63,705 nt of DNA from Alteromonadaceae bacterium (GTDB lineage: Bacteria; Pseudomonadota; Gammaproteobacteria; Enterobacterales; Alteromonadaceae), in assembly GCA_016765535.1 (NCBI GenBank), contig JAESPQ010000022.1, forward strand, positions 1-63,705, written 5' to 3'. Positions within the stretch are counted from its first letter, which is position 1, and each line of letters starts with the position of its first letter. Positions 19,164-60,380 of the stretch are shown in pieces. Made by a program: the position numbers and the translations under genes. The notes beneath the pieces are model-generated. The model ran no database searches, had not been told where the DNA came from, and saw only the letters and a list, made by a program, of their open reading frames with translations.

Positions 19164-20695
19164 CGTTTATTCCTCTTCTTGCGTTTCGCACGTTCTGCGG
19201 TGATTTTTCTCTTCAAGTGCTTGGATAGCAGTCTAAAGAAGTCTTGTTGTTTGCCGTCCTTAATCTGTAGGCTATGGTAGATTACCTCGTCAATGCTCCC
19301 GCGTATCATGAGGAAATGGTTACGCACAGTTTTGGTCGCACCCTGACGCCATAGACGCTTAATGAATTGGTCGAATATCTCCAAGTCATATATGAGACTG
19401 AACCAACAAACGTCGCCGCCTGCACCTTGGAAGTTAAGGCCATGGGCTACCGACGCGGGCTGTGCTAAGAGGACCGGGATTTTCCCCGAGTTCCAATTCT
19501 TCTCGATTGATATTGCTTCACGGTCAGAGGTCTTAGAGTTGAGAATAACTATCTTGCGCTTCTTGGCTTTGAAGTACTTCTCTATCTCGATTAATTCGTG
19601 GTGATACCAGTAGGCAATAAACAGCGGCTTGCCCTGTAGCTCCTCGATTAATTCGTCTAACGCGGCCATCTTCTCCTTGTGTAATTGGAAGTACGGGCGC
19701 TTGCTCGATGACGGGATGGCACCCATATCTTCTACGTCCCAATCTTCGTACAGATTACCGTTACAGATTTGGTGTAGCTTCTGCGCTACCGACGCCGCTG
19801 TAGGGGGGTAAACGTCTTTGCCCTTGATGGTGACAAAGTGCTCCTTCCGTAGGGTGTCATAAATCTTCTGGGCCTTCTTGGGCAGGTCTATCATTATCTT
19901 GTTTTCTATCAGCGGCGGAAGCTTTAAATTGTCCTCGGCAGATAGTCGGATAATGAATGGCGCAATCTTCCTATTGATACGCTTCTCCGCGCCCACTTGT
20001 AACTCGAATTGCTTAAACTGCGGGTTCCCGTATTGGCGGAAATACTCGTAGCGGAAGTGTCCTATCTTCGTACCCAGCGAGCGGCCTTCATCCACAATTT
20101 GCATTTGACCGAACAACTGCATATAGCCGTTAGGTATTGGCGTTCCTGTTAGGATGTAGCGACGGGCGAACCGGGGCACAATTTTCTTCATCATCTTGAA
20201 GCGGGCAGACTCGTGGTTCTTGAACATCGTGGATTCGTCCACCGTCAGCATATCGAACGGCCATGAGGTCGTGCGCTTGCCCTTCAACTGTTCCATGAGC
20301 CACGGTAAGCCTGCGGGATTAATAACGTGTATGTCGGCGTCTAGGTTCCCCCAAAGGTCCTTATTGTCACCGTGCATAACATTTACTTTCATGTGTTCAA
20401 AGTTAGACCATTTCTTTGTCTCCAAAGGCCACACAAGATGACAGACTCGAATGGGGGCGATGACTAGCATACCCCGCACCTTGTCGTGCATCTTGAGCAT
20501 CTTATAGAGCTGTAGAATAATGGTGGTCTTGCCTAGCCCCGGGTCGAGGAAGAAGCCGATAAACTTCTGCATGAACCCCCGGGAAATACACATACGTTGG
20601 TAGCTGTGACCTTTCCACCGCGGCTTAGGCTTTGCGATGCGCCTTGATTTCCGCTTTGAAAGTGCTAATCGCTTCTGCTTTATTGTCGATAACAT
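19160..20695 (-). CDS. SNF2-family DNA helicase/ATPase
   Basis: 511 aa. Q-motif region KGHSYQRM, Walker A DPGLGKT (51-57), motif II DEST (153-156, in place of DEAH), motif III LTGTPIPNGYMQLFGQM, and C-terminal RecA-like domain with VLLAQPASVAHGLNFQGAG and an Arg-finger-like QFIKRLWRQGATKTV. Short SNF2 ATPases of this kind form a conserved module with VRR-NUC, family A polymerase, DUF2815 and DUF2800 genes in many phages; they are thought to remodel or unwind DNA during replication. The only usual start codon before the Q-motif is the ATG at 20695, which forces a 71-bp overlap with the VRR-NUC gene. Confidence 0.88.
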   Translation of the reverse strand: MLSTIKQKRLALSKRKSRRIAKPKPRWKGHSYQRMCISRGFMQKFIGFFLDPGLGKTTIILQLYKMLKMHDKVRGMLVIAPIRVCHLVWPLETKKWSNFEHMKVNVMHGDNKDLWGNLDADIHVINPAGLPWLMEQLKGKRTTSWPFDMLTVDESTMFKNHESARFKMMKKIVPRFARRYILTGTPIPNGYMQLFGQMQIVDEGRSLGTKIGHFRYEYFRQYGNPQFKQFELQVGAEKRINRKIAPFIIRLSAEDNLKLPPLIENKIMIDLPKKAQKIYDTLRKEHFVTIKGKDVYPPTAASVAQKLHQICNGNLYEDWDVEDMGAIPSSSKRPYFQLHKEKMAALDELIEELQGKPLFIAYWYHHELIEIEKYFKAKKRKIVILNSKTSDREAISIEKNWNSGKIPVLLAQPASVAHGLNFQGAGGDVCWFSLIYDLEIFDQFIKRLWRQGATKTVRNHFLMIRGSIDEVIYHSLQIKDGKQQDFFRLLSKHLKRKITAERAKRKKRNKR

Positions 20696-27343: not shown

Positions 27344-28126
27344 TTATTCGTCGTCAACAATTTCAAGTAACGCGTCGTACAAGTTAGCTAAATCGTCTTC
27401 ATCTTCCGCAAGTTTTTTCAGACCACGGATAGTGTTTAGACCTGCTGCTTTCAACGCTTTTTCAGTTTGCTTTTTGCTTTCTTTACGAGCGGCGGTATAC
27501 GCGTCTTTGACTTGGTCAATGGTAACGGGTTCGTCATCGTCGTCATCGTCATCATCATCGTCATCGTCGTCGTCATCGTCGTCGTCATCATCATCATCGT
27601 CGTCGTCATCGTCGTCATCGTCATCATCATCATCGTCGTCGTCATCATCGTCATCGTCATCATCATCGTCGTCGTCGTCATCATCATCGTCATCATCGTC
27701 GTCATCATCATCGTCGTCGTCATCGTTATCCAACAACTCAGCAATTTCTTTCGCAATTTCGGCATAGTCGTCTTCATCCACTTTTTTAGCATTTTTGTAA
27801 TCATGCTCGGCTAGAATCGTCATGACTTCTGCTTTACTTGATTCAGCGATTGCGGCTTTAACCAACGCTAAGAATTCTTTCTGCGTCATTTCAACTTCTG
27901 GGGCCGTTTTCTCTTTCTCTTTTTCTTTCAATTTCGCCGCGGCTTTTTCGGCTTTAGCGATAGCTTTCAGCTCTGCTTTAGTTGGCTTCTTGTCAGACTT
28001 GCCTTTAGGCTTCTTATCGGCCTTCGCTTCTAATCCTTCTGCGACTGCGCCCAGTGCTTCCGCGATTGCGAACGCTAGAGATTTAATAGAGGTTTCGCAT
28101 AATGTTACTGTTTGAACTTTAGCCAT
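27344..28126 (-). CDS. poly-aspartate protein with duplicated SSB-tail domain
   Basis: 260 aa from ATG 28126, which has AAGGAA upstream (the ORF extends to 28198 without RBS). Order: N-terminal segment (MAKVQTVTLCETSIKSLAFA), Lys/Ala/Glu-rich helix, helical domain 1 (MTQKEFLALVKAAIAESSKA…), a run of 64 Asp encoded by mixed GAT/GAC (27533-27724), then helical domain 2 (VTIDQVKDAYTAARKESKKQ…). Domains 1 and 2 resemble each other and the C-terminal domain of the DUF2815 SSB. The acidic rod may mimic DNA or act as a binding platform at the replication fork. Function unknown. Confidence 0.75.
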   Translation of the reverse strand: MAKVQTVTLCETSIKSLAFAIAEALGAVAEGLEAKADKKPKGKSDKKPTKAELKAIAKAEKAAAKLKEKEKEKTAPEVEMTQKEFLALVKAAIAESSKAEVMTILAEHDYKNAKKVDEDDYAEIAKEIAELLDNDDDDDDDDDDDDDDDDDDDDDDDDDDDDDDDDDDDDDDDDDDDDDDDDDDDDDDDDDDDDDDDDEPVTIDQVKDAYTAARKESKKQTEKALKAAGLNTIRGLKKLAEDEDDLANLYDALLEIVDDE

Positions 28127-28204
28127 TTGATAATTTCCTTGAGGCCGTAGCCTCGATAATTTAAAGATTAAAAGTACTGTTCGGGTTTTCTTGTTCACCC
28201 CTTA

Positions 28205-28333: not shown

Positions 28334-30778
28334 TTATAAAATAGTTTGGTATGCTTCTGCTACTTCTTCTTCGCAGCGTTCAAGCTTGCCAATGATCTTA
28401 GCCTTGTGCTTGGCATCCAGCTCCATCTCAGTCGTCTTAGGCATTACCCATGCTGACTGACGCTTACCATTTACACGTAGGCGACCATCTGACGACCCGG
28501 GTACTTTCAATTCGTGGAAGCCCGCGTCGTTGAGCGCATGTTTTAGCTCTGACGTCTTCTTGGATGCTGTGCCGAGAATAGCCTCGTAAGGGCTCACGTT
28601 GCCCCCATTTTGGTGCATCTTTAATAAGAACATTTGGCACAACGATTTCCACGTCATGTAAGTGTACTTATTCAGCATAGACTCGTCATCGTCCAGTTCA
28701 TCTTTAACCAATGCTTCGGCCCAATCCAGTGATGAACGCATAACCTGCTTGGTGTACTCAGTCTTCGGCAAGTTGTAAATATCAATGGTAACTATTTTCA
28801 TGTGCTTAAAGAAGTACGCGATAGCTGGTATGTTAGCGTCTAGGTACTTAACCAACTTGGCATAGTACTTCGCGTCCCGGGGCATAACTTCACAACGCAG
28901 CATACAGAATCGACGTTCATCCGCTGTTACGAAGAGTGCATCCTCGTGGTTGGTGAAGGCAAGCATATTAGTAACGTTTGGAAGCGTCACATAATCTTTT
29001 TGCATGGCCCTGATTTTTACTGTGTCCTCTGTGATGAATGACTTCAAATTTTCGGTAATCGTTTTACGCGCCTTGGCGGCATACAGCTCGTGAATTAGTA
29101 CTAACTGTGAACCAGACTGCCAAGAGTTAAACTTCTCTTCTAGTGGCTGCGTGGTGTTCAATTCATTCACGTTCTTAGCACCGAAGATAGGCTTAATTAT
29201 CTTGGCGGCGATGATTGATTTACCGATACCTTTACGACCTTTAATAATCGGGGCCCACATAATCTTTTTACCGGGGTTCTGGTAATTGTATGCTATGAAC
29301 TCCAACACGATTGCACGTTCATAAGCGTCTGGGAACAAGTACTCAAAATGTTCACGTAACGGCTTAGTCTTGCCCTTCTTCGGTTTCACATCTGACGCGC
29401 AATAAGTGTTAAGCAATTTACTACGTTTATCCAGTGGGTCCCGGAACGTTCTTTCATGCGCCGGGGAGTAGCGACGAGCATCAACCTTCTGCACCGCGCC
29501 AATATCTGTCAAGATTTTGAACGGGGACAATTTGGTATAGCCGAAGTCTTCATTCATCTCAGTGTTCTTGGTGTTGAAACCTTCCGGTTTATACTCCAAT
29601 TCAGCACGTCGATTATAGATAATATTTTCACTGGCAATATAGTAAAAGTCGTCAAACTCCCGGATGTACTTATCAATTACCGGGCCGTCTAAATCGCTAT
29701 CAATATCTAAGCGTTCTTTCGCTTCGGTCTTCTCGACTTTCTGCGTTTTAATCTTAGACTTAATTTCGCTCTTAAGGTCAGCGAGTGAGATGTCCTTCAC
29801 CCGGGCGCTAATCTTTTTAAGCATTGAGTTAAGTTGAATAGGACTCGTCTTGTTGGACTGCACACTCGCAGCGGCCATGGTCAAGATATGGTCAACGTCA
29901 CTCTCAAGCGATTCTGATTTTTGAATACGCTCTACGATTTGGTCGTGGGACCATTCCAAGTCATTATGATTACGTGAGTGCGACTTCCATACCGACTTAA
30001 CGGTGGTTTTAATCTCGCTCAGTTTCATTGGTGGGCTGAACTTAAGTTCGTTAATCTCCCAGCAAAAATCCATAATCTCTTGAAGCGGTTTGCCCTGACC
30101 AATTAATGTCCCTGCAACCTTCGCGATATGGTCATTACGGCCGCCTTCCGTCAGCTCCGCAGTAATATCGACCTTCTCGTTTATCGAGTTGTTTAGCTCC
30201 TCCTGCTCCCATAGCAGTTCGGGCGGGACTTCGATTTTCTGTTCTGGGTCAAGTAACGCCTTTTGCTCAGTGGCGTAGTAGTAAAAATGTTTCTCCATTT
30301 CTCGTGGACAGGCAGGCAGATACATTGGTCGTGATAAAGCTTTGGCTGATGTATCGACGCCTGTACTGCCAAACAGGTAATTAAGATAGATAGTCGTTTC
30401 AACGTGCTTGCCTTTGCTAACAGGTTCGATGTAAGGGATAACCACACGATAGCGGTTGCCCTTGCCTTCCATCTTGTGACTATGCGTGGTGTATATGCAG
30501 TAGCGACACTTGAGCGGCTTAAGGACCTTACGGATACCCTTTGGCGTAATGTTCGAGTTATCTAAATCGAGCGTGGCCCCATAGTAGAACTTGACTGCAC
30601 TCGCGTTACGCTTCTCACCCTTGAAGGATGCGAAAACGAAGTACGGGCCGTCTTTTTTCTTACGACGTACCGCAGTCTCTAAGTTCTTAAACAGTTTATC
30701 AATGCTAAGTTTCTTTTGCACAATCTTAGAATTGAATACGGATGAACCAAGCGCGATTACTACTTTTTTCTTCGCCAT
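28334..30778 (-). CDS. primase-helicase (primase-polymerase/PriCT plus SF3-like helicase)
   Basis: 814 aa. N-terminal primase-polymerase core: ATLDLDNSNIT (DxD), YTTHSHKMEGKGNRYRVVIP. Then a PriCT-1-like segment (GGRNDHIAKVAGTLIGQGKP). The C-terminal half is a D5/VapE-type SF3 ATPase: Walker A IKGRKGIGKS (about residue 535), Walker B LVLIHE, and TNMLAFTNHEDALFV with sensor Asn. It primes and unwinds DNA for the family A polymerase. No separate replicative helicase was seen apart from the SNF2 protein. Confidence 0.85.
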   Translation of the reverse strand: MAKKKVVIALGSSVFNSKIVQKKLSIDKLFKNLETAVRRKKKDGPYFVFASFKGEKRNASAVKFYYGATLDLDNSNITPKGIRKVLKPLKCRYCIYTTHSHKMEGKGNRYRVVIPYIEPVSKGKHVETTIYLNYLFGSTGVDTSAKALSRPMYLPACPREMEKHFYYYATEQKALLDPEQKIEVPPELLWEQEELNNSINEKVDITAELTEGGRNDHIAKVAGTLIGQGKPLQEIMDFCWEINELKFSPPMKLSEIKTTVKSVWKSHSRNHNDLEWSHDQIVERIQKSESLESDVDHILTMAAASVQSNKTSPIQLNSMLKKISARVKDISLADLKSEIKSKIKTQKVEKTEAKERLDIDSDLDGPVIDKYIREFDDFYYIASENIIYNRRAELEYKPEGFNTKNTEMNEDFGYTKLSPFKILTDIGAVQKVDARRYSPAHERTFRDPLDKRSKLLNTYCASDVKPKKGKTKPLREHFEYLFPDAYERAIVLEFIAYNYQNPGKKIMWAPIIKGRKGIGKSIIAAKIIKPIFGAKNVNELNTTQPLEEKFNSWQSGSQLVLIHELYAAKARKTITENLKSFITEDTVKIRAMQKDYVTLPNVTNMLAFTNHEDALFVTADERRFCMLRCEVMPRDAKYYAKLVKYLDANIPAIAYFFKHMKIVTIDIYNLPKTEYTKQVMRSSLDWAEALVKDELDDDESMLNKYTYMTWKSLCQMFLLKMHQNGGNVSPYEAILGTASKKTSELKHALNDAGFHELKVPGSSDGRLRVNGKRQSAWVMPKTTEMELDAKHKAKIIGKLERCEEEVAEAYQTIL

Positions 30779-38216: not shown

Positions 38217-39194
38217 TTAATGGCTAATAGGTGTTGAGCTTAGTATCACGTTGTCAAAGCTTACCCGTGAATCAACACTCGGGGCCCACGATGAAGACGA
38301 GCCACCATGCCAGAAATAAAACATCATGTGATTAATATCATAGATGCGGTTCTCTCCCAGCATCATATCGGTGCGCTCTAGGACTAGCTGACCGTTGACC
38401 CATATTCTAACGATGCCGTTTGATTCATTGGCGTCATTCATCTGGGCGTATGTTTCCACGTAGTAGCTAACCCCGCGCTGGAACTTGAACGGTTCCCCGT
38501 TGTGTATGTAGTCTATTTCTTCGCCACAGTAACCGTTATGCAAGGGGTTATCTTGGTGGTAGAAGTAGCCAATAGCTCGGCCATCCTCACGGAACATTGA
38601 GCGCAGACTAAATCCTTCGTCGGGGCCTTGACCGTAGGCGTTACAGCCATCGGGGTACACCTGATTACCATTAGACTTTTTAAGGTCCTTGTTCAGCCCT
38701 ACGAGCCCGGGAAGTTTACCCCCTGTGGAAAAGTCATAGCCCGGGTGGAACTCTATCTCATATCCGAAGTAAACCGACTCAGTGGGTACGATGTCCTTTG
38801 CTGCGTGGACCCCCTTCTTAATCTGGTCCTTTGGTATGAGCATTTCCCAACGTCCATTAACGATTGTTGAGGCTTTGGCGCTGATTGTCTCCCATTGGAA
38901 GTGGAAGTCCCCGTCTGCGACGTTGTCCGTGTAAGTAGTACCGTTGCTATGGTTTTCGAAGTCAACGACCCACAGGGCCCCGGACGTGTCCAACGGTGGC
39001 AAGGTGTGGATGTCAGCGGGGACAATAACTACATCGTCGCCCTCGTCTTCATCCGCTGGGGGTATAATAACTACATCGTCGCCAACGTCTACCACCTTAA
39101 TCGGTTCGTAATCGTCGGGAACAGTTAGCCCTATTTCAAATTGACAGGCTACTAATAACAAACTGGCAGTGATGCCTATTAGTACTTTTTTCAT
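38217..39194 (-). CDS. polysaccharide lyase 14-like lipoprotein (alginate/glucuronan-lyase type)
   Basis: 325 aa. Type II signal MKKVLIGITASLLLVACQ with lipobox VAC and Gln at +2, an acidic Val/Asp/Pro linker (residues 25-70), then a beta-jelly-roll catalytic-type domain. Diagnostic parts: YFGYEIEFHPGYDFSTGGKL-PGLVG, GFSLRSMFREDGRAIGYFYH, GVSYYVETYAQMNDANESNG-IVRIWVNGQLVLE, and FYFWHGGSSSSWAPSVDSRV-SFDN. These match the PL14 pattern ('kGGKLPGL.gG ... R.mWR.dG...Y.Y ... G.vrvwvnG..v ... t.fGGsd.sWAp..d.ya.FDnf'). Known PL14 enzymes cleave alginate or glucuronan. Made early as a lipoprotein, so not a tail depolymerase. May act on the host's exopolysaccharide, or be a moron gene. Confidence 0.65.
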   Translation of the reverse strand: MKKVLIGITASLLLVACQFEIGLTVPDDYEPIKVVDVGDDVVIIPPADEDEGDDVVIVPADIHTLPPLDTSGALWVVDFENHSNGTTYTDNVADGDFHFQWETISAKASTIVNGRWEMLIPKDQIKKGVHAAKDIVPTESVYFGYEIEFHPGYDFSTGGKLPGLVGLNKDLKKSNGNQVYPDGCNAYGQGPDEGFSLRSMFREDGRAIGYFYHQDNPLHNGYCGEEIDYIHNGEPFKFQRGVSYYVETYAQMNDANESNGIVRIWVNGQLVLERTDMMLGENRIYDINHMMFYFWHGGSSSSWAPSVDSRVSFDNVILSSTPISH

Positions 39195-39831: not shown

Positions 39832-39924
39832 CTATAAGTTCTTGGCGATGTAACAGCCAACTATGAAGCCCGCAAGGGCTGCGATGACGTTAAGCAATAC
39901 TTCTGCCATTGTTAATGTTTCCAT
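39832..39924 (-). CDS. 30-aa single-span membrane miniprotein
   Basis: METLTMAEVLLNVIAALAGF then IVGCYIAKNL: one hydrophobic helix with AGAGGA RBS 6 bp before the start, 3 bp after the upstream stop. Small size makes it uncertain, but it fills the gap exactly. Confidence 0.5.
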   Translation of the reverse strand: METLTMAEVLLNVIAALAGFIVGCYIAKNL

Positions 39925-39927
39925 AGT

Positions 39928-40134
39928 CTAATCCTCTTCTGCGTCGAGTGCTTCCACGACTGCGATTGCACAGTTTGGGGCGCTACATGGGTTACTTTTG
40001 CCGTGGCTGTAGACGTCATCTAGTAGTGCTTCGTAACGTGCTAATTTAGCCTCTAGGGCTGCGACGTATTCTTGGTTGGCCCGAGCGTCGCAGGTCGTAC
40101 CGCAACACTCGTTTAGCCCTGATGGTTTAGTCAT
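39928..40134 (-). CDS. hypothetical protein with coiled coil
   Basis: 68 aa from ATG 40134, overlapping the ParB-like gene's last codons (GATGACTAA), so coupled. Short coiled coil (EYVAALEAKLARYEALLDDV) and five Cys in total. Not recognised. Confidence 0.55.
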   Translation of the reverse strand: MTKPSGLNECCGTTCDARANQEYVAALEAKLARYEALLDDVYSHGKSNPCSAPNCAIAVVEALDAEED

Positions 40135-40912
40135 CCAAGTATAGGTCAAGTAGTTCGAGTAGCGCGTCGCTTAGTAATGCGCGGTCCATCGCTGCGATTA
40201 GTTCCATTGCTTGACGGCCGTGTGAAGGTTTGAAGGTCTTAAGAACAACCTTGGTGCTTTTCTTGCCTTTGCCTTTGGGTGCGTCTTTGGCTACTTCTTT
40301 AGCCGCTTTAACTTTTTTAATGATCTTAGCCGGGGCCGCGTTGCCACCTTTACGCACTGCCTTGATTACTTCCGAAGAGCTAACCGTACCCGCTTTAACT
40401 TCCGCGATTACTTCATCACCCGCAGATAGTAAGATTAAATGGTTGTCTACGTCTTTACGTGAACGGTGGACGGCTTCGGCTACTTCGCCCTTGGTCATGC
40501 CTTGGTTAATCATACGTTGGTACGCCTGCGCTCGTTCTACGGGCTCTAACTGACGGCCTTGGCTTGACGTAATCATGAATGATAGTTCTTCGAGTTTTGA
40601 CCCGGTGAATTCTTTCACTTCAAGGCGTGTACACTCGGCTTGCATTGCCGCTAAGTAACGGTGATGACCATCAATGATTTTAAAACCGTCTGGGGTGGTC
40701 TTAATCATGATATTCGGTAGCTGTGCGCCTGCTGCATACGCTTTAGCTAACTGGTCTACGTGGTCTTGGTCGATGTCACGAACGTTAAAGCCTTCTTCAA
40801 TGAAGATATGTTCCATTGGTACGAAGAAAGTCTTAGTTACTTTGATGCCTAAGTCTTTGTCTTTAGCGTATGCAGAACCTACTGAGATGCCCGTTACTGT
40901 TGTGTTTGTCAT
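40127..40912 (-). CDS. ParB-like protein (ParB/Srx fold plus HTH)
   Basis: 261 aa. ParB N-terminal motifs: VPMEHIFIEEGFNVRDIDQD, LPNIMIK, and IIDGHHRYLAAMQ (GHHR at 82-85, in the position of ParB's CTP-binding GERR box). HTH-like part QAYQRMINQGMTKGEVAEAV-HRSRKDVDNHLILL. Then a Lys-rich linker and helical C-terminus. No ParA is encoded nearby. In phages such proteins may regulate transcription, nick DNA, or bind repeats near the origin. It has its own promoter and is near the repeat clusters at 42.6-43.6 kb. Confidence 0.8.
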   Translation of the reverse strand: MTNTTVTGISVGSAYAKDKDLGIKVTKTFFVPMEHIFIEEGFNVRDIDQDHVDQLAKAYAAGAQLPNIMIKTTPDGFKIIDGHHRYLAAMQAECTRLEVKEFTGSKLEELSFMITSSQGRQLEPVERAQAYQRMINQGMTKGEVAEAVHRSRKDVDNHLILLSAGDEVIAEVKAGTVSSSEVIKAVRKGGNAAPAKIIKKVKAAKEVAKDAPKGKGKKSTKVVLKTFKPSHGRQAMELIAAMDRALLSDALLELLDLYLDD

Positions 40913-40957
40913 GTGATACCCTTACTTGGTTTGATGTGCTTCGTTGTTGATAACTTA

Positions 40958-40985
40958 AATATAGTACGTGTTCGTGAGAGTGCAA
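40958..40985 (-). promoter_or_regulatory. conserved early promoter
   Basis: -35 TTGCAC (40980-40985), 16 bp, -10 TATATT (40958-40963) then TAAG. Leader TTAAGTTATCAACAACGAAG is shared with the promoter at 41365-41392. Drives the ParB-like gene. Confidence 0.75.
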
Positions 40986-40989
40986 ATTT

Positions 40990-41325
40990 TTATTTAATAA
41001 ATTGGTAAAAAGTTTTCATCGGGTACACTTTCTGGGTGATGTCTTCGATGGTGAACCAATCATCTGAGTGCGGTAGTTGACCCTTGTTAAACTGCTGGAC
41101 CATTTCCAATAGTTCTTTAAATGAGATTACTTCGTGCTCGCCCACTTGGTCGGGGCCGTTCATCGGTGTGATAAGGTATTCTTGCTGAGACAGTTCACGG
41201 TGTAGCTTGCGACGTTTCCCTTCCATTTCGAGAACCATGCCGAGTAAGTCTGACGCTGTGTTGCTTGCTGGGGCGTCTAATTCGTTCGCTGCCTGTAATG
41301 CTACTTCGGGGTTAAATGTTGTCAT
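40990..41325 (-). CDS. hypothetical protein
   Basis: 111 aa. Helical first half (DLLGMVLEMEGKRRKLHREL). Own promoter. Not recognised. Confidence 0.55.
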   Translation of the reverse strand: MTTFNPEVALQAANELDAPASNTASDLLGMVLEMEGKRRKLHRELSQQEYLITPMNGPDQVGEHEVISFKELLEMVQQFNKGQLPHSDDWFTIEDITQKVYPMKTFYQFIK

Positions 41326-42606: not shown

Positions 42607-42785
42607 ACGGCCGACCTTTTAAAAAAAGGATACGGCGGACTTTTAAAAATACATACGGCGGACTTTTAAAAATACATACGGCCGACTTTTAAAAATACAT
42701 ACGGCCGACTTTTAAAAATACATACGGCCGACTTTTAAAAATACATACGGCCGACTTTTAAAAATACATACGGCCGACTTTTTAT
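42607..42785. repeat. tandem array of 23-bp units
   Basis: Six head-to-tail 23-bp units (42632-42769), each ACGGC(C/G)GACTTTTAAA followed by AATACAT, flanked by a diverged 25-bp unit (42607-42631) and a partial unit (42770-42785). Units 1-2 have GCGG where the rest have GCCG. The unit contains a CGGCCG palindrome and TTTTAAAA. It lies between two minus-strand genes. Confidence 0.95.
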
Positions 42786-42792
42786 GTCATTT

Positions 42793-42871
42793 CGCTAAGT
42801 CATTGATTTTAGGTCATTTTCGCTAAGTCATTGATTTTCGCTAAGTCATTGATTTTAGCTAAGTCATTGAT
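42793..42871. repeat. four direct copies of TAAGTCATTGAT
   Basis: Perfect copies at 42796-42807, 42824-42835, 42842-42853 and 42860-42871, mostly within (C)GCTAAGTCATTGATTTT. The same 12-mer recurs in the 50-51 kb non-coding region. Confidence 0.9.
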
Positions 42872-42879
42872 TCTAAAGC

Positions 42880-43278
42880 TTAACGCCCTGTAACACCAAA
42901 GACCGCAGGCCCGCCCATAATGCTGTAAATGTCCTCTATTTCAAGCGTTAAGAGGTTTTTAATTGCTAGCCTTAGTCTCACATTGGCTAGCTGTGCGCGG
43001 TACATCTGCGACGCTGTGCCGAACGTGTGGAACTCTTGCCCTGTGTAGCTGTGCTGCGCCGTCACCCGGGCGATGAAGGCCACATACCCGGCCTGTGATT
43101 CGACCACGGCCCCGGCTAGTAATTCATCGGCTACCATGCGAGCCGCTAGACATTGTACTTCGGTATACATAGGACACTCTAGGCGGGCCGCTGGGGCTCT
43201 TTGTTCCTTAGCGACCCCAGTGCTAGGGGTACTAGCATTAAACGGCGCTATGGGCTTTCTAGGGGGTGTATATTTCAT
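42880..43278 (-). CDS. hypothetical protein
   Basis: 132 aa from ATG 43278 (GAGG upstream). Pro/Ala-rich N-terminus, then helical (ECPMYTEVQCLAARMVADEL). Not recognised. It separates the two repeat clusters. Confidence 0.55.
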   Translation of the reverse strand: MKYTPPRKPIAPFNASTPSTGVAKEQRAPAARLECPMYTEVQCLAARMVADELLAGAVVESQAGYVAFIARVTAQHSYTGQEFHTFGTASQMYRAQLANVRLRLAIKNLLTLEIEDIYSIMGGPAVFGVTGR

Positions 43279-48884: not shown

Positions 48885-49856
48885 CTATACCCCGCCTTGT
48901 AAGTCAATTAAATAAGCGTTAATAACATCGTAGTCACCGTGTATAACGTAATGGCCTAGGCAATCATATAGCGCCCGGGTATCGAACCCACGGCGCAGGT
49001 TAACAATGTAATAGCCTAACGTGTTTATGATGGCGTTAGGGCTACCCGGGCGGCCGTTGTTTGGTTGGTACGCAAACAGGTTACGCGGTAGCTCTTTTAG
49101 TGTTGGCGTGAAATGGTAGCCCGGGAGATGGCCCCCAATATAATTCATCTCTAACACGCTTTCAATCATCGCCTGTCTTCTGCGGTTCCCGTCGATTAAA
49201 GGGCGCATATCTATTACGATTTTACAATCTATCCCGGTTAGTGTGGCGCTCAGTGCGTTCTCTTCTGCGGTGGCGCAGTCGATACATATTAGAGCTGTTA
49301 CCCACGCGCTAGCGGTCATCTCGTCGGTTTTACAATAGCCCTCACATGCTGGGCAGAAGTGCGGTGCGTCGTGGTCGTTAATGGTGTCTAACGCTTTCGG
49401 TGGGTTGGCTTCATAGTCTGCTTTATCGCTCGCGCAGTCTGGGCAAATCAACATATCCCAGTCAGTGGAGAACGTTAGGCCGTTGCTGTGACATTCACAG
49501 TTAAGACAGTATCCGCTTGTTGCTGCGGCTTCTCTTACTTTCACGGCTGCGATACGTGCGGCGGTGTCTGCTTTATTATGTGCAACCTTAGCGGCTATCT
49601 CTTTTTCTGTCTGTGCTACGTCGTCAGCGGTCACAGAGATAATTAACATTAGTTCGTCATTGCTCATTGTCGCTTTATGAAAACGACGTTCTAGCGAGCG
49701 ACCACCGCTTAACTCTTGCGACCACATAACATAGTAACATTTGGTTTCGCGGGCTAGTTTGCAATCAATGCTTTTACCTGTGTAAGTGTTAACGATTCGG
49801 AAGGTGTTAACCTCTGGGCTTGCTAGGGTAGATAGTGCGCGGTGGTGTAGTTGCAT
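48885..49856 (-). CDS. zinc-finger hypothetical protein, first early gene
   Basis: 323 aa. Two four-Cys sets: CLNCECH … CPDCASD and CPACEGYC … CIDCATA, suggesting two zinc ribbons, after a helix with Ala/Lys repeats. C-terminal part contains VIDMRPLIDGNRRRQAMIES and AYQPNNGRPGSPNAI. As the first gene leftward of the non-coding control region, with its own promoter, it is probably expressed soon after entry; a host-takeover or regulatory role is inferred. Confidence 0.6.
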   Translation of the reverse strand: MQLHHRALSTLASPEVNTFRIVNTYTGKSIDCKLARETKCYYVMWSQELSGGRSLERRFHKATMSNDELMLIISVTADDVAQTEKEIAAKVAHNKADTAARIAAVKVREAAATSGYCLNCECHSNGLTFSTDWDMLICPDCASDKADYEANPPKALDTINDHDAPHFCPACEGYCKTDEMTASAWVTALICIDCATAEENALSATLTGIDCKIVIDMRPLIDGNRRRQAMIESVLEMNYIGGHLPGYHFTPTLKELPRNLFAYQPNNGRPGSPNAIINTLGYYIVNLRRGFDTRALYDCLGHYVIHGDYDVINAYLIDLQGGV

Positions 49857-49900
49857 AATTTGTTACTCCGTTGTGATGATTGGTTTGCCTTACACAACTA

Positions 49901-49928
49901 ATGATAGTACAGGTATGGAAAAGCGCCA
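49901..49928 (-). promoter_or_regulatory. conserved early promoter, TGGCGC variant
   Basis: -35 TGGCGC (49923-49928), 16 bp, -10 TATCAT (49901-49906) then TAG. Most upstream promoter of the leftward transcription. Confidence 0.68.
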
Positions 49929-50363
49929 CTATATAGGCAAATAAAGTTAATCCCCTAGGGCCCGGAAGCAGGACGGACGCCCCACGGCTGCTAGGGCCTT
50001 TTTGAAACCCTTCTATATAAGCACATTTAAAACGCTCTAGGGCCTCCCGGGCCGCTTCTGTGTCGGACCCTTCCGGGGCTCTGGGGAACCTTTAACGCTT
50101 CCGGGGCTCTGAGCTAATTAAGTGTATGGACAGGCTGTTTTACACACTCCGGGGCCTATAGGGCGGCTCTCTGGGGCCTCTCTGTGCGGGGGCTGGGTAC
50201 GATCTCCAAAGCAACTAGGCCAATGGATAAGGCAGGCACATAGTCCAATTACTTCAATGACTTACATGTGATACACGCGCCCTGTGCTATGGTCATCATA
50301 AGGCCCCTGTGCTGCTTATTAGCCTTTCATGTGGTGATAGTATCTAAGGGTCTATTTCTCAGG

Positions 50364-50388
50364 TGGGAAATGGACAGAGACAGTGGAC
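50364..50388. repeat. outer inverted repeat, left arm (25 bp)
   Basis: Begins TGGGAAATGGACAGAG and ends CAGTGGAC; exact reverse complement of 50747-50771. Confidence 0.95.
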
Positions 50389-50492
50389 GCGCTAAGTGTC
50401 TGATTAGTATGGTGTTAGTGGTGGTTAATTCTTTAGCTCTCTAAAGGATTAAAAGAATAATAGTATAAGTAACAGTAAGTTAAAAGTTATTA

Positions 50493-50515
50493 GGTCTTGA
50501 GTATCATTTAGAAAA
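50493..50515. repeat. inner inverted repeat, left arm (23 bp)
   Basis: Begins GGTCTTGAGTATC and ends ATTTAGAAAA; exact reverse complement of 50621-50643. Confidence 0.95.
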
Positions 50516-50620
50516 GTATTAGATAGAGTTAGTTTATCCCTGTATAGGTCACATTCCCAATAATTAATATAGTCACAGGGCCCTAGAACGCTAACCCCGG
50601 GAGCCCTAGAGCACAGTAAT

Positions 50621-50643
50621 TTTTCTAAATGATACTCAAGACC
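50621..50643. repeat. inner inverted repeat, right arm (23 bp)
   Basis: Partner of 50493-50515; the loop is about 105 bp. Centre of symmetry at 50568. Confidence 0.95.
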
Positions 50644-50746
50644 ATGAAAGTTGTAAGTCATTGAAACCTATATGGCTATGGCTCCCAGCTCTAGAGCGTC
50701 CACCTGTGCGGGCTGTGTAACGTGTTGTAATCATTGGCGTTCGTGT

Positions 50747-50771
50747 GTCCACTGTCTCTGTCCATTTCCCA
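50747..50771. repeat. outer inverted repeat, right arm (25 bp)
   Basis: Partner of 50364-50388. Centre of symmetry 50567.5, the same as the inner pair. Confidence 0.95.
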
Positions 50772-51274
50772 GCTCTAGCACCACATCAAATGAAACCACA
50801 ATAACTATAGTAGTATCAATCACTTAGTGCTCTAGCCTCTCTGGGGCCACAGGCTGACAGGGCCACCATAACGCTAAGTGTATGATACTATTAGGTATTC
50901 TCTTTAGCAGGGCTAGGGGATAAGTGTATAAGTATCAATGACTTACCTCTTCATCACCAGGAAACCTGAGTAGTATCAATGACTTAGCATCAATCACCTT
51001 CATATCACTGTAAGTCCTTGATATATAACGATAAAACGTCAGAACCGCCCAGAATTCACCAAAAACGTCCACGTCTGCTGCCGTAAAATTCCCGGGGCTA
51101 CAGGAAAGTGTACACCTTAAGCTCTAGGGCGCTAAGAAGATGAATTCTTTAATTGACGGGAAGCAAAGGGCGGGTTAATATCTCGTGTAGATTAAAGCTT
51201 CCTGAGAAAAAGTCGCCGTAGAATTTTTTCTGAAAATTTTAAAAGCATAAATAGTCTTTGCTCTGCGTGAGGGA

Positions 51275-51304
51275 TTGGCTAGCCCGGGAAACTTGTACTA
51301 TACT
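51275..51304 (+). promoter_or_regulatory. promoter of rightward operon
   Basis: TTGGCT (51275-51280), 18 bp, TATACT (51299-51304) followed by TAAG as in the leftward promoters. Start of the gene is 30 bp further. Confidence 0.65.
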
Positions 51305-51334
51305 TAAGTTAAGCGCCACAGAGAGAACACGATT

Positions 51335-52432
51335 ATGAAGCCCTTATTTAAAGATGATAAAACCTACCCGCGAACAGTCTTCGGGATTGGCTACCAGATA
51401 GAAGGCGGTGGGTCCACGCACTACACCAAGATTTATAACCATTGGCGCGATATGCTGCGACGCTTCCTAGAGCACGAGAAAGGCTACAACACTTTAAACC
51501 TCGCGCACGGGTGGGAGTGCTTCGACACCTTCCGTGACTGGTACTTGATTAAAGAGATTGGGCTGCACAAGCTTAAGTCGCGCTACCTCGTCTTCCTCGC
51601 GCCGGAGTTCTTGCCAAAGCGTATGAAGGTCGGGGGCAAAGTCGAAATGATAGTTAGTCCGAAGTTTGGGCCGAAGACTTGCACCCTATCAATCACGAAG
51701 CCGCCGACGTGGCGTAAAGCCCGCTGGGTGGAAGCCCGGGTCAGGGATAAAGAAACCAAAGAGGTCGAAGATAAGATGGTGCTCCGGGAAGGTACAAAGA
51801 ACGCGCAGCGAACACAGTTCTTTGTACCCATGGACACAGTATTATACCGCCGCAAGAAAGCAGCTATTAAAATTTGGTCTGAATATATCGGCAGTGAAGA
51901 GGACCGAATAGCCCTCGCGTCCCTAGAGCGGACGAAGGACCGCAACACCCGGGAATTGATGCGGATAGGCCGCAGTAACTTAACCAAGGGTGCCACTCAG
52001 CACTATAATAAAATAATCGCCCCCGCACAGGCTCTACAGGGCAAACAGCTTCTTAAGGCCCGGGCGAAGGAAGCCAAACGACTTGCAGGGCTGGATGATG
52101 TCGAATTAAGAATAAAACAGCGGGGCATATATCGCGGGCTGGGCTACATCGGGGAAGGGAAATACCCTACCAGAATAAACAAGGTTAAGACCCGGGCGTA
52201 CAACCGATGGATGTGGATATTAGACAGGTGCTACAAGAATTGTGACCGCAGAGAAGACACCAACATGTACCTAGGTTATAGGCTGGGCAAAAAGTTCTTG
52301 TGCTTCCAAGATTTTGCCAAGTGGTTCGAGAAACATGACCGCCCGGGCAGCCCGCTTCCAACCTTCATCGTCAAACCCAATAGTAACGGTAAATTGGTCC
52401 TCGGGCCGAAGAATACTAAATTAATGTTCTAG
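51335..52432 (+). CDS. protein with two copies of a phage DNA-binding-type domain
   Basis: 365 aa. The C-terminal 95 residues (GIYRGLGYIGEGKYPTRINK … AYNRWMWILDRCY … FLCFQDFAKWFEKH) match a domain common in phage HNH/homing proteins ('GvGy.geGkY......k...Y..W..mL.RCY......y.g..v...W..fq.Fa.W'). The N-terminal 75 residues (VFGIGYQIEGGGSTHYTKIY-NHWRDMLRRF … WECFDTFRDWYL) are a second, diverged copy. Between them is a basic helical region (residues 115-260). No HNH nuclease motif seen. Likely a DNA-binding protein. Confidence 0.6.
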   Translation: MKPLFKDDKTYPRTVFGIGYQIEGGGSTHYTKIYNHWRDMLRRFLEHEKGYNTLNLAHGWECFDTFRDWYLIKEIGLHKLKSRYLVFLAPEFLPKRMKVGGKVEMIVSPKFGPKTCTLSITKPPTWRKARWVEARVRDKETKEVEDKMVLREGTKNAQRTQFFVPMDTVLYRRKKAAIKIWSEYIGSEEDRIALASLERTKDRNTRELMRIGRSNLTKGATQHYNKIIAPAQALQGKQLLKARAKEAKRLAGLDDVELRIKQRGIYRGLGYIGEGKYPTRINKVKTRAYNRWMWILDRCYKNCDRREDTNMYLGYRLGKKFLCFQDFAKWFEKHDRPGSPLPTFIVKPNSNGKLVLGPKNTKLMF

Positions 52433-52976: not shown

Positions 52977-53229
52977 TCGAAAACGTATACTAGTCTTAGG
53001 TGTATCAGGACATACAACGCACATCGTGGAAATGCTTAAACGCGAAGGCCACAAGGTGATAACATTACACGACATAGAACGAGGATTAAACAATGAGTCT
53101 TTCAGCAGAATTGAACCATTTCAGAATACCGATGCTTGGGCGCTTTCTAGGCCACGCAATGCAGAACACCCACGGAAGCTTTCTCGAAGGGGAAGTCTAC
53201 GTCATCACCGCATACAATCCCCAAGATAA
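52969..53229 (+). CDS. small ORF, Rossmann-like start (uncertain)
   Basis: 86 aa from TTG 52969 with GAGGGGAAAG upstream. Residues 4-35 (KRILVLGVSGHTTHIVEMLK-REGHKVITLHD) look like a real nucleotide-binding beta-alpha-beta unit, but the second half overlaps the next gene and reads like out-of-frame sequence. Either a short real protein with an overlapping tail or a remnant. Confidence 0.4.
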   Translation: MHNRKRILVLGVSGHTTHIVEMLKREGHKVITLHDIERGLNNESFSRIEPFQNTDAWALSRPRNAEHPRKLSRRGSLRHHRIQSPR

Positions 53230-54523
53230 AACGGTGCAAACAGCAGGCCGCACCACCCGTAACCGTTGGATAGACGCCACGGCATTTGAAGTTGTTCGCA
53301 ATGCGTCATGGGATTTTGCAGAAGGGCATTGTGCGCCGCATTTGGAAGCAGCAAGTGACTTCGCCAATGACCTAACCAAGTTCGAAGACACCGGGCATGA
53401 TGACCACGTCGAAGCGATGTCATTCGACCACCGTGTGTGGATGGGTATAGATTTGGCTAACAGCCCGGACTACTCCGTAACAGGTCGCTACATTGGTGAT
53501 GCTTGGCCGGAAATGACATCGAGAATGCTGCGCCCCGCACGTCCGCTAGCCGCGGACGAAAACCAACATAAAATACTAAGCCATGACTTTACGTCACTTG
53601 AGCAAAAGGCCATGACATATGCCCGCAAAGGTAAAAGCCGTGCGAACGCACTGTACCATTACGCGACAGGTAAAGCCGAGTTCTTAGCACTAGAACGTAG
53701 AGAGCGCCGCTTCGCCATGCTCGGACCTCATGCAGATAAACTCTTCTTAGAACTGCGTCACCCCGAAGAAGCACGAGCAATGCTAAAAGAAAAGTTCGAG
53801 GCTATCAAATATTCAGCCAGTCAGGAAACGCCCCTAACAGATGATATAAGCGACGCCTTTTTAGCAGTGCAACGCTTGATGCAAGTGCCTGACCATCTAT
53901 TAGGCGAAAAAGAGTTCCATACTGTGGACTTGATGCGTAATCTCAATTGTCGCTGTGTAATTAACGATGTTCCGTATGTAACAGGCATTGAAGACGGCAA
54001 ACCGACGTACTCGAAGCCTTTTCTCCCTAAGCTAGCTAAGATGTCAGATAAGTTCGAAAAGACCATGAGAGCTCGATTAGAGCGCAGTATGAACGCGGTT
54101 CACCTTGATACGTCAGCAATGCCCGAAGTGTACAACCGTATGGTCGAATGTGAACGCGATATCGGCGCATTTGTGAAAGGTTGCACATACCGAGCAATGG
54201 TGACAGGAAGTGGCCCCGGCATAAAAGTCGAGCACCCTCATACCGCAGTGCCTATGCCTGTGCCCCGTGACTACTTTAAAACCACCGGGCCGATACCTTG
54301 TGCCGTCGATGACCGCGACGCGCCATTAGACCCGATGGGTGACTTCGACTTTGAAGGGGCTGCACAGAAGAAGGTTAACTCGCCTGACTTCCCGTTAGAA
54401 GCTGAACTCGCGGAAGAGTCCACCTTTGTACATCAATCGGCTACTCGCAAAACTCAGGAAGTGCATGTAGAAAATGAGAGCACTTCGGACCTTCGTAAAT
54501 ACCGCTTCAATCCAGAAGCATAA
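53093..54523 (+). CDS. hypothetical protein, pre-terminase
   Basis: 476 aa. No known motif seen. N-terminal beta-rich part with HGSFLEGEVYVITAYNPQDK, helical middle (RERRFAMLGPHADKLFLELR), acidic C-terminus. First large gene before the terminase genes; expression as a late gene is likely. Confidence 0.7.
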   Translation: MSLSAELNHFRIPMLGRFLGHAMQNTHGSFLEGEVYVITAYNPQDKTVQTAGRTTRNRWIDATAFEVVRNASWDFAEGHCAPHLEAASDFANDLTKFEDTGHDDHVEAMSFDHRVWMGIDLANSPDYSVTGRYIGDAWPEMTSRMLRPARPLAADENQHKILSHDFTSLEQKAMTYARKGKSRANALYHYATGKAEFLALERRERRFAMLGPHADKLFLELRHPEEARAMLKEKFEAIKYSASQETPLTDDISDAFLAVQRLMQVPDHLLGEKEFHTVDLMRNLNCRCVINDVPYVTGIEDGKPTYSKPFLPKLAKMSDKFEKTMRARLERSMNAVHLDTSAMPEVYNRMVECERDIGAFVKGCTYRAMVTGSGPGIKVEHPHTAVPMPVPRDYFKTTGPIPCAVDDRDAPLDPMGDFDFEGAAQKKVNSPDFPLEAELAEESTFVHQSATRKTQEVHVENESTSDLRKYRFNPEA

Positions 54524-59397: not shown

Positions 59398-60380
59398 AGA
59401 AGCAGGACGACCTAGACCCACTATCGCGTATAGAGGGCCTAGTAAGTCGGTTCGAGTCGGACTTCACCGCAGCGTTCCTAGTACTCATGGGCACCATTAA
59501 AAGTGAACTAGTATTAAGCGAGATAGCGGACCTAATCGAGCAGGGCCTATTAACCCAAGCCCTCGAAAAGGTGGAACAGTCCATAGCTAAGTTCTCTGAC
59601 GTGGTGGTAACAGCTATCGCCGCGTCGGGTGCGAGTACAGCAGAGTTTCTACAGTCGGCGCTCAAGGTGGTAGTAAGCTTTGACCAGACTAACGAAAATG
59701 CTGTAAGCGCAATGCGTGATACTAAATTACGAATCATGCAGGGCCTTAGCACAACGCAGATGCAAACAATACGGGAGACATTAATCGAAGGCATTACTAA
59801 TGGCGATAACCCTCTACAACAAGCGCGACGGTTCCGGGATGCTATCGGGCTAACGCCTAACCAGAATAAAGCGGTCGCGTCGTACCGTAGAGCACTTGAG
59901 AGCAATAGCGCGGCAGCGTTAAATAGGGCGCTACGTGATGCAAGGTTTGACCGAACGGTGGAGAACGCGCTATCTTCGGGGGACCCCTTATCAGCGAAAC
60001 AAATTGATAAGATGGTCAATCGCTACATTGAACGTAGTGTAAGACACCGAGCGGAAGTGATAGCACGAACCGAAGCACTAGCGGCAGCGCACAAGGGTAA
60101 CAACCTTATGTACGACCAAGCGATAGCAACGGGCATCCTTGAAAGGGAAAGGCTGTTACGAACGTGGAACCGGGCGAAAGATGACCGGGTCCGTGATACT
60201 CACGACGGTATGCAGGGACAACAGCGGGGCTTTGGCGTAGAGTTTATGTCAGACGCAGGCGTATTGCTCATGTACCCGGGGGACGAAAACGCACCGGGTA
60301 AGGAAACGATACAATGCCGTTGTTTAGTAACGACGAGACTTTTACCAATAGGCCAAGTGGCCGGAGTAACAATACTATGA
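59382..60380 (+). CDS. minor head protein, Mu gpF / SPP1 gp7-like
   Basis: 332 aa. C-terminal HRAEVIARTEALAAAHKGNN … TWNRAKDDRVRDTHDGMQGQ … GKETIQCRCLVTTRLL is the signature of this head-morphogenesis family ('iaRTE......g.......v....W.a..D.RvR..H...hG ... p.nCRC.....'). Present in few copies inside the head, probably for DNA ejection or assembly. Confidence 0.9.
   Translation: MCSRVEKQDDLDPLSRIEGLVSRFESDFTAAFLVLMGTIKSELVLSEIADLIEQGLLTQALEKVEQSIAKFSDVVVTAIAASGASTAEFLQSALKVVVSFDQTNENAVSAMRDTKLRIMQGLSTTQMQTIRETLIEGITNGDNPLQQARRFRDAIGLTPNQNKAVASYRRALESNSAAALNRALRDARFDRTVENALSSGDPLSAKQIDKMVNRYIERSVRHRAEVIARTEALAAAHKGNNLMYDQAIATGILERERLLRTWNRAKDDRVRDTHDGMQGQQRGFGVEFMSDAGVLLMYPGDENAPGKETIQCRCLVTTRLLPIGQVAGVTIL

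Follow-up and report, generated by a model that had tools for sequence, protein, structure and literature searches.

Two concentric inverted repeats in the main divergent control region of a phage, and a recurring layout of dissimilar sequence in related phages

The window analyzed here, a 63,705-bp stretch of DNA from an Alteromonadaceae assembly, corresponds to a single unit of a phage whose map is circular and ~65.1 kb long. Between two genes that point away from each other, it carries two perfect inverted repeats, one nested inside the other and centered on nearly the same base pair. What, if anything, could keep two pairs of sequences in such a symmetrical arrangement?

The arms and their setting

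The window belongs to a 219,479-bp contig (G000:C21, 1-219479) that contains ~3.4 tandem copies of the phage, belonging to two mosaic variants; variant A comes first (this is the window, to ~54.4 kb), and variant B is then repeated. The tandem copies probably arose when the assembly went repeatedly around a genome that is circular or permuted, and they are possibly real concatemers. Recognizable structural proteins include a portal, a major head protein, a tape measure and tail proteins, and recognizable replication-type proteins include a family-A DNA polymerase, a primase-like protein (PriCT_1, DUF5906), an SNF2-type helicase and an Enc34-type ssDNA-binding protein. Based on the terminase, the nearest named phages are the Pseudomonas phages RSP (64.0%) and KPP23 (63.6%). 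At the cut-offs used, terL searches of 98, 395 and 398 genomes identified the window's own phage only, except for G083 at 8e-67, and a search of genome contigs gave one distant match with 38% identity. A search with the protein encoded at 53093-54523 gave no match. Elsewhere in the window, a gene among the leftward genes (38217-39194) has a polysaccharide lyase family 14 domain, and the ORF at 27344-28198 contains a long TCATCG-type low-complexity tract (27531-27730).

The arms and the gap that holds them are as follows.

49857..51334, no strand: gap of 1,478 bp, the main divergent control region, between genes 48885-49856 (leftward) and 51335-52432 (rightward)
50364..50388, + strand: outer arm, left, 25 bp
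50747..50771, - strand: outer arm, right, 25 bp
50493..50515, + strand: inner arm, left, 23 bp
50621..50643, - strand: inner arm, right, 23 bp
50325..50340, + strand: weaker flanking block, left, TTTCATGTGGTGATAG, matching the right block at 14/16 positions, ~10 bp out of register
50775..50790, - strand: weaker flanking block, right

The gap is the window's longest stretch without an ORF of at least 80 aa, although short mechanical ORFs, seven in all and 40-70 aa long, overlap it; the largest is at 50449-50661 on the minus strand (70 aa). Gap DNA had no similarity match in plasmids or in a phage collection that includes KPP23 and RSP. In sequence-pattern searches from the gap, the contig of L010 was the sole match for three patterns, and the contigs of L010 and L011 were the matches for one.

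The two pairs are perfect as the preliminary description reported them (25/25 positions in the outer pair and 23/23 in the inner pair), and they are the longest exact inverted repeats within 49800-51400. Their centers, 50567.5 and 50568, are half a base pair apart. When the inner pair was placed randomly inside the outer pair, the centers coincided to within 0.5 bp in 1.0% of trials, which is an after-the-fact figure. The sequence between the arms was correctly described as not complementary, with in-register matches at chance level (28/97 and 31/104) and a local alignment of the inter-arm halves no better than that of shuffles. The weaker symmetry reported for the flanks is real, but it is centered on 50557.5, ~10 bp off the dyad; a match of 14/16 was equaled by ~1% of shuffles, and looser scoring gave 10% for the flanks. 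All four arms are present in each of the three contig copies of the region, which excludes a local assembly error.

Center, motifs and promoters

Around the arms, the gap holds further features, and a second site for one of its motifs lies outside it in a tandem array.

50556..50594, no strand: central block, nearly identical in L010; on the minus strand its sequence is ACTATATTAA, which resembles the -10 of the phage's leftward promoters (by-eye reading)
50567..50573, no strand: three differences between variants A and B (50567, 50570, 50573), the sole differences within 50244-51250
50425..50452, + strand: hairpin with a 12-bp stem and a 4-nt loop, conserved in L010
50254..50264, + strand: TCAATGACTTA motif copy
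50654..50664, - strand: TCAATGACTTA motif copy
50816..50826, + strand: TCAATCACTTA motif copy
50935..50945, + strand: TCAATGACTTA motif copy
50976..50986, + strand: TCAATGACTTA motif copy
49901..49928, - strand: leftward promoter-like site (TGGCGC, 16 nt, TATCAT), by eye, resembling sites upstream of other leftward genes
51275..51304, + strand: rightward sigma-70-like promoter (TTGGCT, 18 nt, TATACT), from a consensus scan
42607..42872, - strand: second motif site, an origin-like array in which a 23-bp unit occurs 7.6 times and four TAAGTCATTGA copies come next, in 18-/28-bp units

Over 50,244-51,250, variants A and B are identical but for three transitions located exactly at the symmetry center, within the L010-conserved central block whose minus strand resembles the -10 of leftward promoters. 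The near-identity of the two variants extends beyond the arms into neighboring coding sequence; because this coding sequence is almost as alike, the low divergence may reflect recent recombination rather than purifying selection. Within the hairpin at 50425-50452, L010 has A-U in place of G-C at the top pair and keeps a U-G pair, in a comparison of two sequences only. Such a pair is possible in the plus-strand RNA alone, so some transcript may still cross the hairpin.

The gap contains five copies of the motif TCAATNACTTA, with neither orientation nor spacing uniform, and the array at 42.8 kb contains four. The sigma-70 consensus scan found five sites in the region against 2.5 +/- 1.7 in shuffles, and it did not detect the leftward promoter-like site at 49901-49928. 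The pattern TCAAT..CTTA occurs nine times in the window, twice each in L010 and L012, four times in L011 and once each in L013 and L014; none was found in KPP23 (bases 1-60328) or in G807-G809. The arms provide matched sequences in this putative divergent promoter region, where they are candidate binding sites. A possible binder of the repeated motif or the arms, no more than a candidate, is the ParB-like protein encoded at 40127-40912, which has a ParB HTH domain.

Relatives with and without the layout

We scanned 19 sequences with a procedure that, for each center, sums exact complementary runs of at least 7 in one register (0.5 bp tolerance), requires at least two blocks starting at least 60 bp apart, covers 300 bp on each side and ignores the central 20 bp per side. 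Four sequences stand out: the window (48 at the reported center, with the next center at 17 and three shuffles at 17, 17 and 21), KPP23 (42), RSP (53) and the IMG/VR contig L012 (37, with a second, overlapping set scoring 28 at ~10 bp from the first). The remaining 15 reach at most 24, including lambda (23), N15 (17), Enc34 (17), YuA (23), D3 (21), F116 (22), two overlapping pieces of BgManors32 (24 and 23), JY39 (17), JustaPhage (15), a Marinobacter locus (15), L010 (15), L011 (17), L013 (16) and L014 (14). Enc34, YuA, D3 and F116 were scanned to base 50,000, RSP from base 20,000 and KPP23 to base 60,328, and JY39 (33.5 kb) and JustaPhage (22.1 kb) were scanned as parts that include the terminase gene. 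Across 40 further loci from a terminase search, among which L046 is L011's contig again, the maximum was 28, and the whole contigs of G807, G808 and G809 scored 22, 22 and 16. Because the scan was written after the KPP23 element had been seen, KPP23 is not a blind hit; the scan sees in-register islands only, and two-way repeats produce such islands more easily.

Upstream of the terminase gene, at a distance of a few kb, KPP23, RSP and L012 each have one element, which shows no recognizable sequence similarity to the window. In KPP23, the blocks lie at 40308, 40349, 40421 and 40481 around a center at 40566.5, within an 864-bp gap (40227-41090) without an annotated gene; the corresponding gap in RSP is 53018-53882. 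In L012, the blocks are at 2499, 2534, 2577 and 2600, with the center at 2686; on the right side, a 32-bp unit recurs at a distance of 77 bp, and TCAATAGCTTA has one copy on each side. The spacers between islands match at or below chance in both KPP23 (18/68) and L012 (3/27). RSP is 98.6% identical to KPP23 in the element region and is not an independent case, since it is nearly the same phage. The two differ across the element span (40302-40831) by seven substitutions and one indel; four substitutions improve pairing and three worsen it, and both of those in the main island improve it.

The KPP23/RSP gap resembles that of the window in belonging to the same terminase clade (terL 64%), in holding one concentric set of ~0.5 kb upstream of terL, in having no annotated gene, and in having a short motif repeated beside the element and again in a second array. 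It differs in that both neighboring genes are leftward, the arms are ~75% alike rather than perfect, and unannotated ORFs overlap it (in KPP23, ORFs of 106 and 129 aa cover the right half). Of the copies of the KPP23 motif GTAAAACGAA, six lie at 9.5 kb, three at 40.9 kb and four elsewhere; this two-site habit resembles that of TCAATNACTTA in the window's gap and array. The main island of KPP23 also contains a palindrome, GTCCGGAC, which has 17 sites in bases 1-60328. Eight of the 17 have TTGAC 15-17 nt upstream (chance, ~0.6% per site), a spacing that would set the palindrome between a -35 and a -10 element, as in early promoters, so GTCCGGAC looks like a regulator site of such promoters; at the main island itself the promoter is absent. 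The KPP23 genome paper mentions neither the concentric element nor GTCCGGAC (PMC4031330).

In a separate observation, KPP23_062 (L009:2723-3625) has an Acb2/Tad1 hairpin domain. This hairpin family is known from phage anti-defense proteins.

We defined the clade by terL identity of at least 61% to the terL of KPP23; within it, L011 starts inside the gap, and L013 and L014 are truncated too near the terminase gene to show the layout. Of the lineages that cover the region, the window, KPP23/RSP and L012 make three with the layout, against two without it (L010, and G807/G808 counted once). The whole contigs of G807 and G808 contain no concentric set, with nothing above 22. The closest relative that spans the region is L010 (terL 93%). 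Over the left half of the gap it is collinear with the window (74% over 50165-50593), and of the left outer arm it retains the outer part; the inner left arm and both right arms are absent, leaving no paired arms. Non-conservation of the arms in relatives, which the preliminary description had named, together with a lack of origin, transcription or packaging activity, as evidence against its proposal, is what L010 shows. The right half of L010 does not align with that of the window (422 of 500 shuffles score as well); it contains five CAGTGGAC copies, three of them at 11-bp spacing. At L010:3023-3056, the place equivalent to the right half of the window's element, ACAGTGGACAC occurs in 11-bp tandem copies.

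L011 aligns with the window's right half (score 25.0, against 2.8 +/- 1.6 for shuffles, with 0/500 as good), although the core of its outer right arm differs from the window's. Because the right half is homologous to L011 and the left half to L010, both sides of the element are old. As judged from these alignments, the arms are old in place and not in sequence. The cores of the window's outer arms match each other better than they match those of L010 and L011, which is what either template switching between the arms or selection for matched sites would leave. Indels are frequent in this DNA between relatives: four comparisons contain 19, 3, 21 and 8 gap events.

Explanations for the concentric layout

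A bidirectional replication origin, in which the arms form a cruciform or a symmetric initiator complex, is improbable in our assessment. It would agree with the presence of TCAATNACTTA in the direct-repeat array at 42.8 kb beside 23-bp tandem repeats, as in iteron origins, and with the detrended GC-skew minimum of KPP23 at 39,861, ~0.4 kb from the element's gap (in 60,328 of 62,774 bases). The corresponding minimum in the window is at 43,219, by the array and 7.3 kb from the arms; in both phages the skew curve is a broad plateau, and the raw minimum of KPP23 is at 30,745. With only 7/30 and 12/30 central positions pairing, a cruciform would have no core at the center from which to start, so the origin cruciform proposed earlier finds little favor in these data. 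The gap itself has neither the single-orientation tandem sites of an iteron origin nor a GC-skew minimum, the latter being weak evidence given the plateau, and the array at 42607-42872, near the detrended minimum, is the best candidate for the origin of this phage. The lack of a central palindrome also sets the window apart from the telomere-resolution site (tos) of phage N15, where concentric repeats likewise surround one center but a central palindrome is present. We rejected an N15-type telomere site on this basis and because no telomere-resolvase matched in the window's genome: protelomerase (PF16684) was found in 0/1 genome (a bin 86% complete), and a control search found it in one of 14 named genomes.

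A long noncoding RNA with the arms as its two helices is less probable still. The plus strand folds better than 100 of 100 shuffles (z -7.7), but the arms give this score by construction. The hairpin that L010 keeps with a two-sided change would suit an RNA, as would the 35-nt outer island of the window, where both such mismatches are G.U (G.U/A.C, 2/0). In the islands of the relatives, with borders drawn by eye, G.U is not in excess over A.C (KPP23, 7/7; RSP, 5/4; L012, 4/7), Rfam gave 0 matches up to E 1, and the long helices are missing from L010. An RNA is thus unlikely to be what is kept, given the absence of a G.U excess and of an Rfam match. Coincidence between two unrelated inverted repeats would find room in the 1.0% placement figure and in a gap rich in two-way repeats, but the equal layout in KPP23/RSP and in L012 makes it barely credible.

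A more serious alternative, possible although we lean against it, is a functionless scar, left long ago by an inverted duplication in DNA rich in repeats. Most of that duplication would have drifted or been replaced, template switching between the halves would have made short patches identical again, and the geometry would simply be inherited. The preliminary description had offered a decayed giant palindrome, and of that proposal, uniform decay of one palindrome can be rejected, as the islands are perfect and the spacers at chance level, while a scar patched by template switching fits. Two reports describe template switching that homogenizes the arms of imperfect inverted repeats in other organisms (PMC8604942, PMC8794818). 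A scar would also explain why L010 and G807/G808 do without the element, and it accommodates the mixed effect of the KPP23/RSP substitutions on pairing, including the two improvements in the main island, as well as equal spacers, which are compatible with our neutral simulation. It accounts less readily for window spacers of 104 and 103 bp that stand at chance identity even though indels are frequent between relatives, and for the occurrence of a tract of this kind, similarly placed, in three lineages whose sequences are unrelated. Two other origins for the arms were rejected: the right half is not a fresh inverted copy of the left, being homologous to L011, and a transposon-like insertion (MITE) is contradicted by L010, the one comparable relative, in which the outer end of the left arm is spanned by a conserved block of ~30 bp. 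Nor were tRNA genes found by ARAGORN in the large gap of G807 (L102).

The explanation that we tentatively place first, with confidence a little short of even, is that protein-binding sites form a dyad-symmetric array within the main control region, working through protein bridges and with arms that template switching keeps alike. The arms would be sites for one or more phage DNA-binding proteins, arranged symmetrically about the center of the control region, and proteins bound to the left and to the right copies would connect across that center. The bridged region would form a loop or nucleoprotein complex controlling the leftward and rightward transcription units and possibly acting on replication too, and polymerase template switching between the arms would keep them alike. 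Matched islands separated by spacers at or below chance are expected for sites and not for one long pairing helix, and a protein-bridged loop is accordingly the best fit among the three readings first offered for this locus. GTCCGGAC in the main island of KPP23 would likewise put a likely regulator site in the arms of that phage. The sequences show the arms, their shared center, the divergent setting and the recurrence of the layout with other sequences in KPP23/RSP and L012; protein binding, bridging, the regulatory effect and the upkeep of the arms are what we infer. Against a fixed function, L010 has no paired arms, and G807/G808 have no concentric set.

The earlier suggestion that a shared center implies selection for geometry holds in part: that the geometry is more than chance is supported by KPP23/RSP and L012, each of which has a concentric set at a comparable position, but constraint on spacing is suggested only. 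In a rough neutral simulation, in which freely drifting spacers were scored as equal if within 1 bp and the result varied with the indel rate, equal spacers arose in 7-28% of runs for the window (104 bp), in 11-52% and 14-64% for KPP23, and in 18-72% for L012. Equal spacers are therefore only mildly surprising under neutrality, which suggests constraint on spacing without proving it; as a sign of constraint, they are weak for the window alone and suggestive across all spacers. A broader version of the protein-bridged array, which we consider rather unlikely, is a clade-wide cis-element in which the sequence of the islands turns over fast and the mirror spacing is kept, as a scaffold for a phage protein pinning the two halves.

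Known systems offer partial likenesses to such an array. In lambda, a repression loop forms between the operators OL and OR, and the window likewise has matched sites flanking a control region, which a regulator could bridge; its sites differ in being putative and in consisting of a 23-25 bp perfect repeat, 105 and 358 bp apart. Cluster O mycobacteriophages have 17-bp dyad repeats of unknown function scattered over the genome (PMC4351075), which resemble GTCCGGAC in KPP23 as short dyad sites scattered in a phage genome, and differ from the window in their genome-wide scatter, not being described as concentric. In the accessible portions of the literature on nested or concentric inverted repeats in phages, we found no such element.

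If the spacing is what is under selection, a search for concentric islands would find control regions that share no sequence similarity. In that case, too, geometry would be kept where sequence is not, in a named and culturable phage, KPP23, and how far the layout of DNA alone controls a phage genome would become directly testable.
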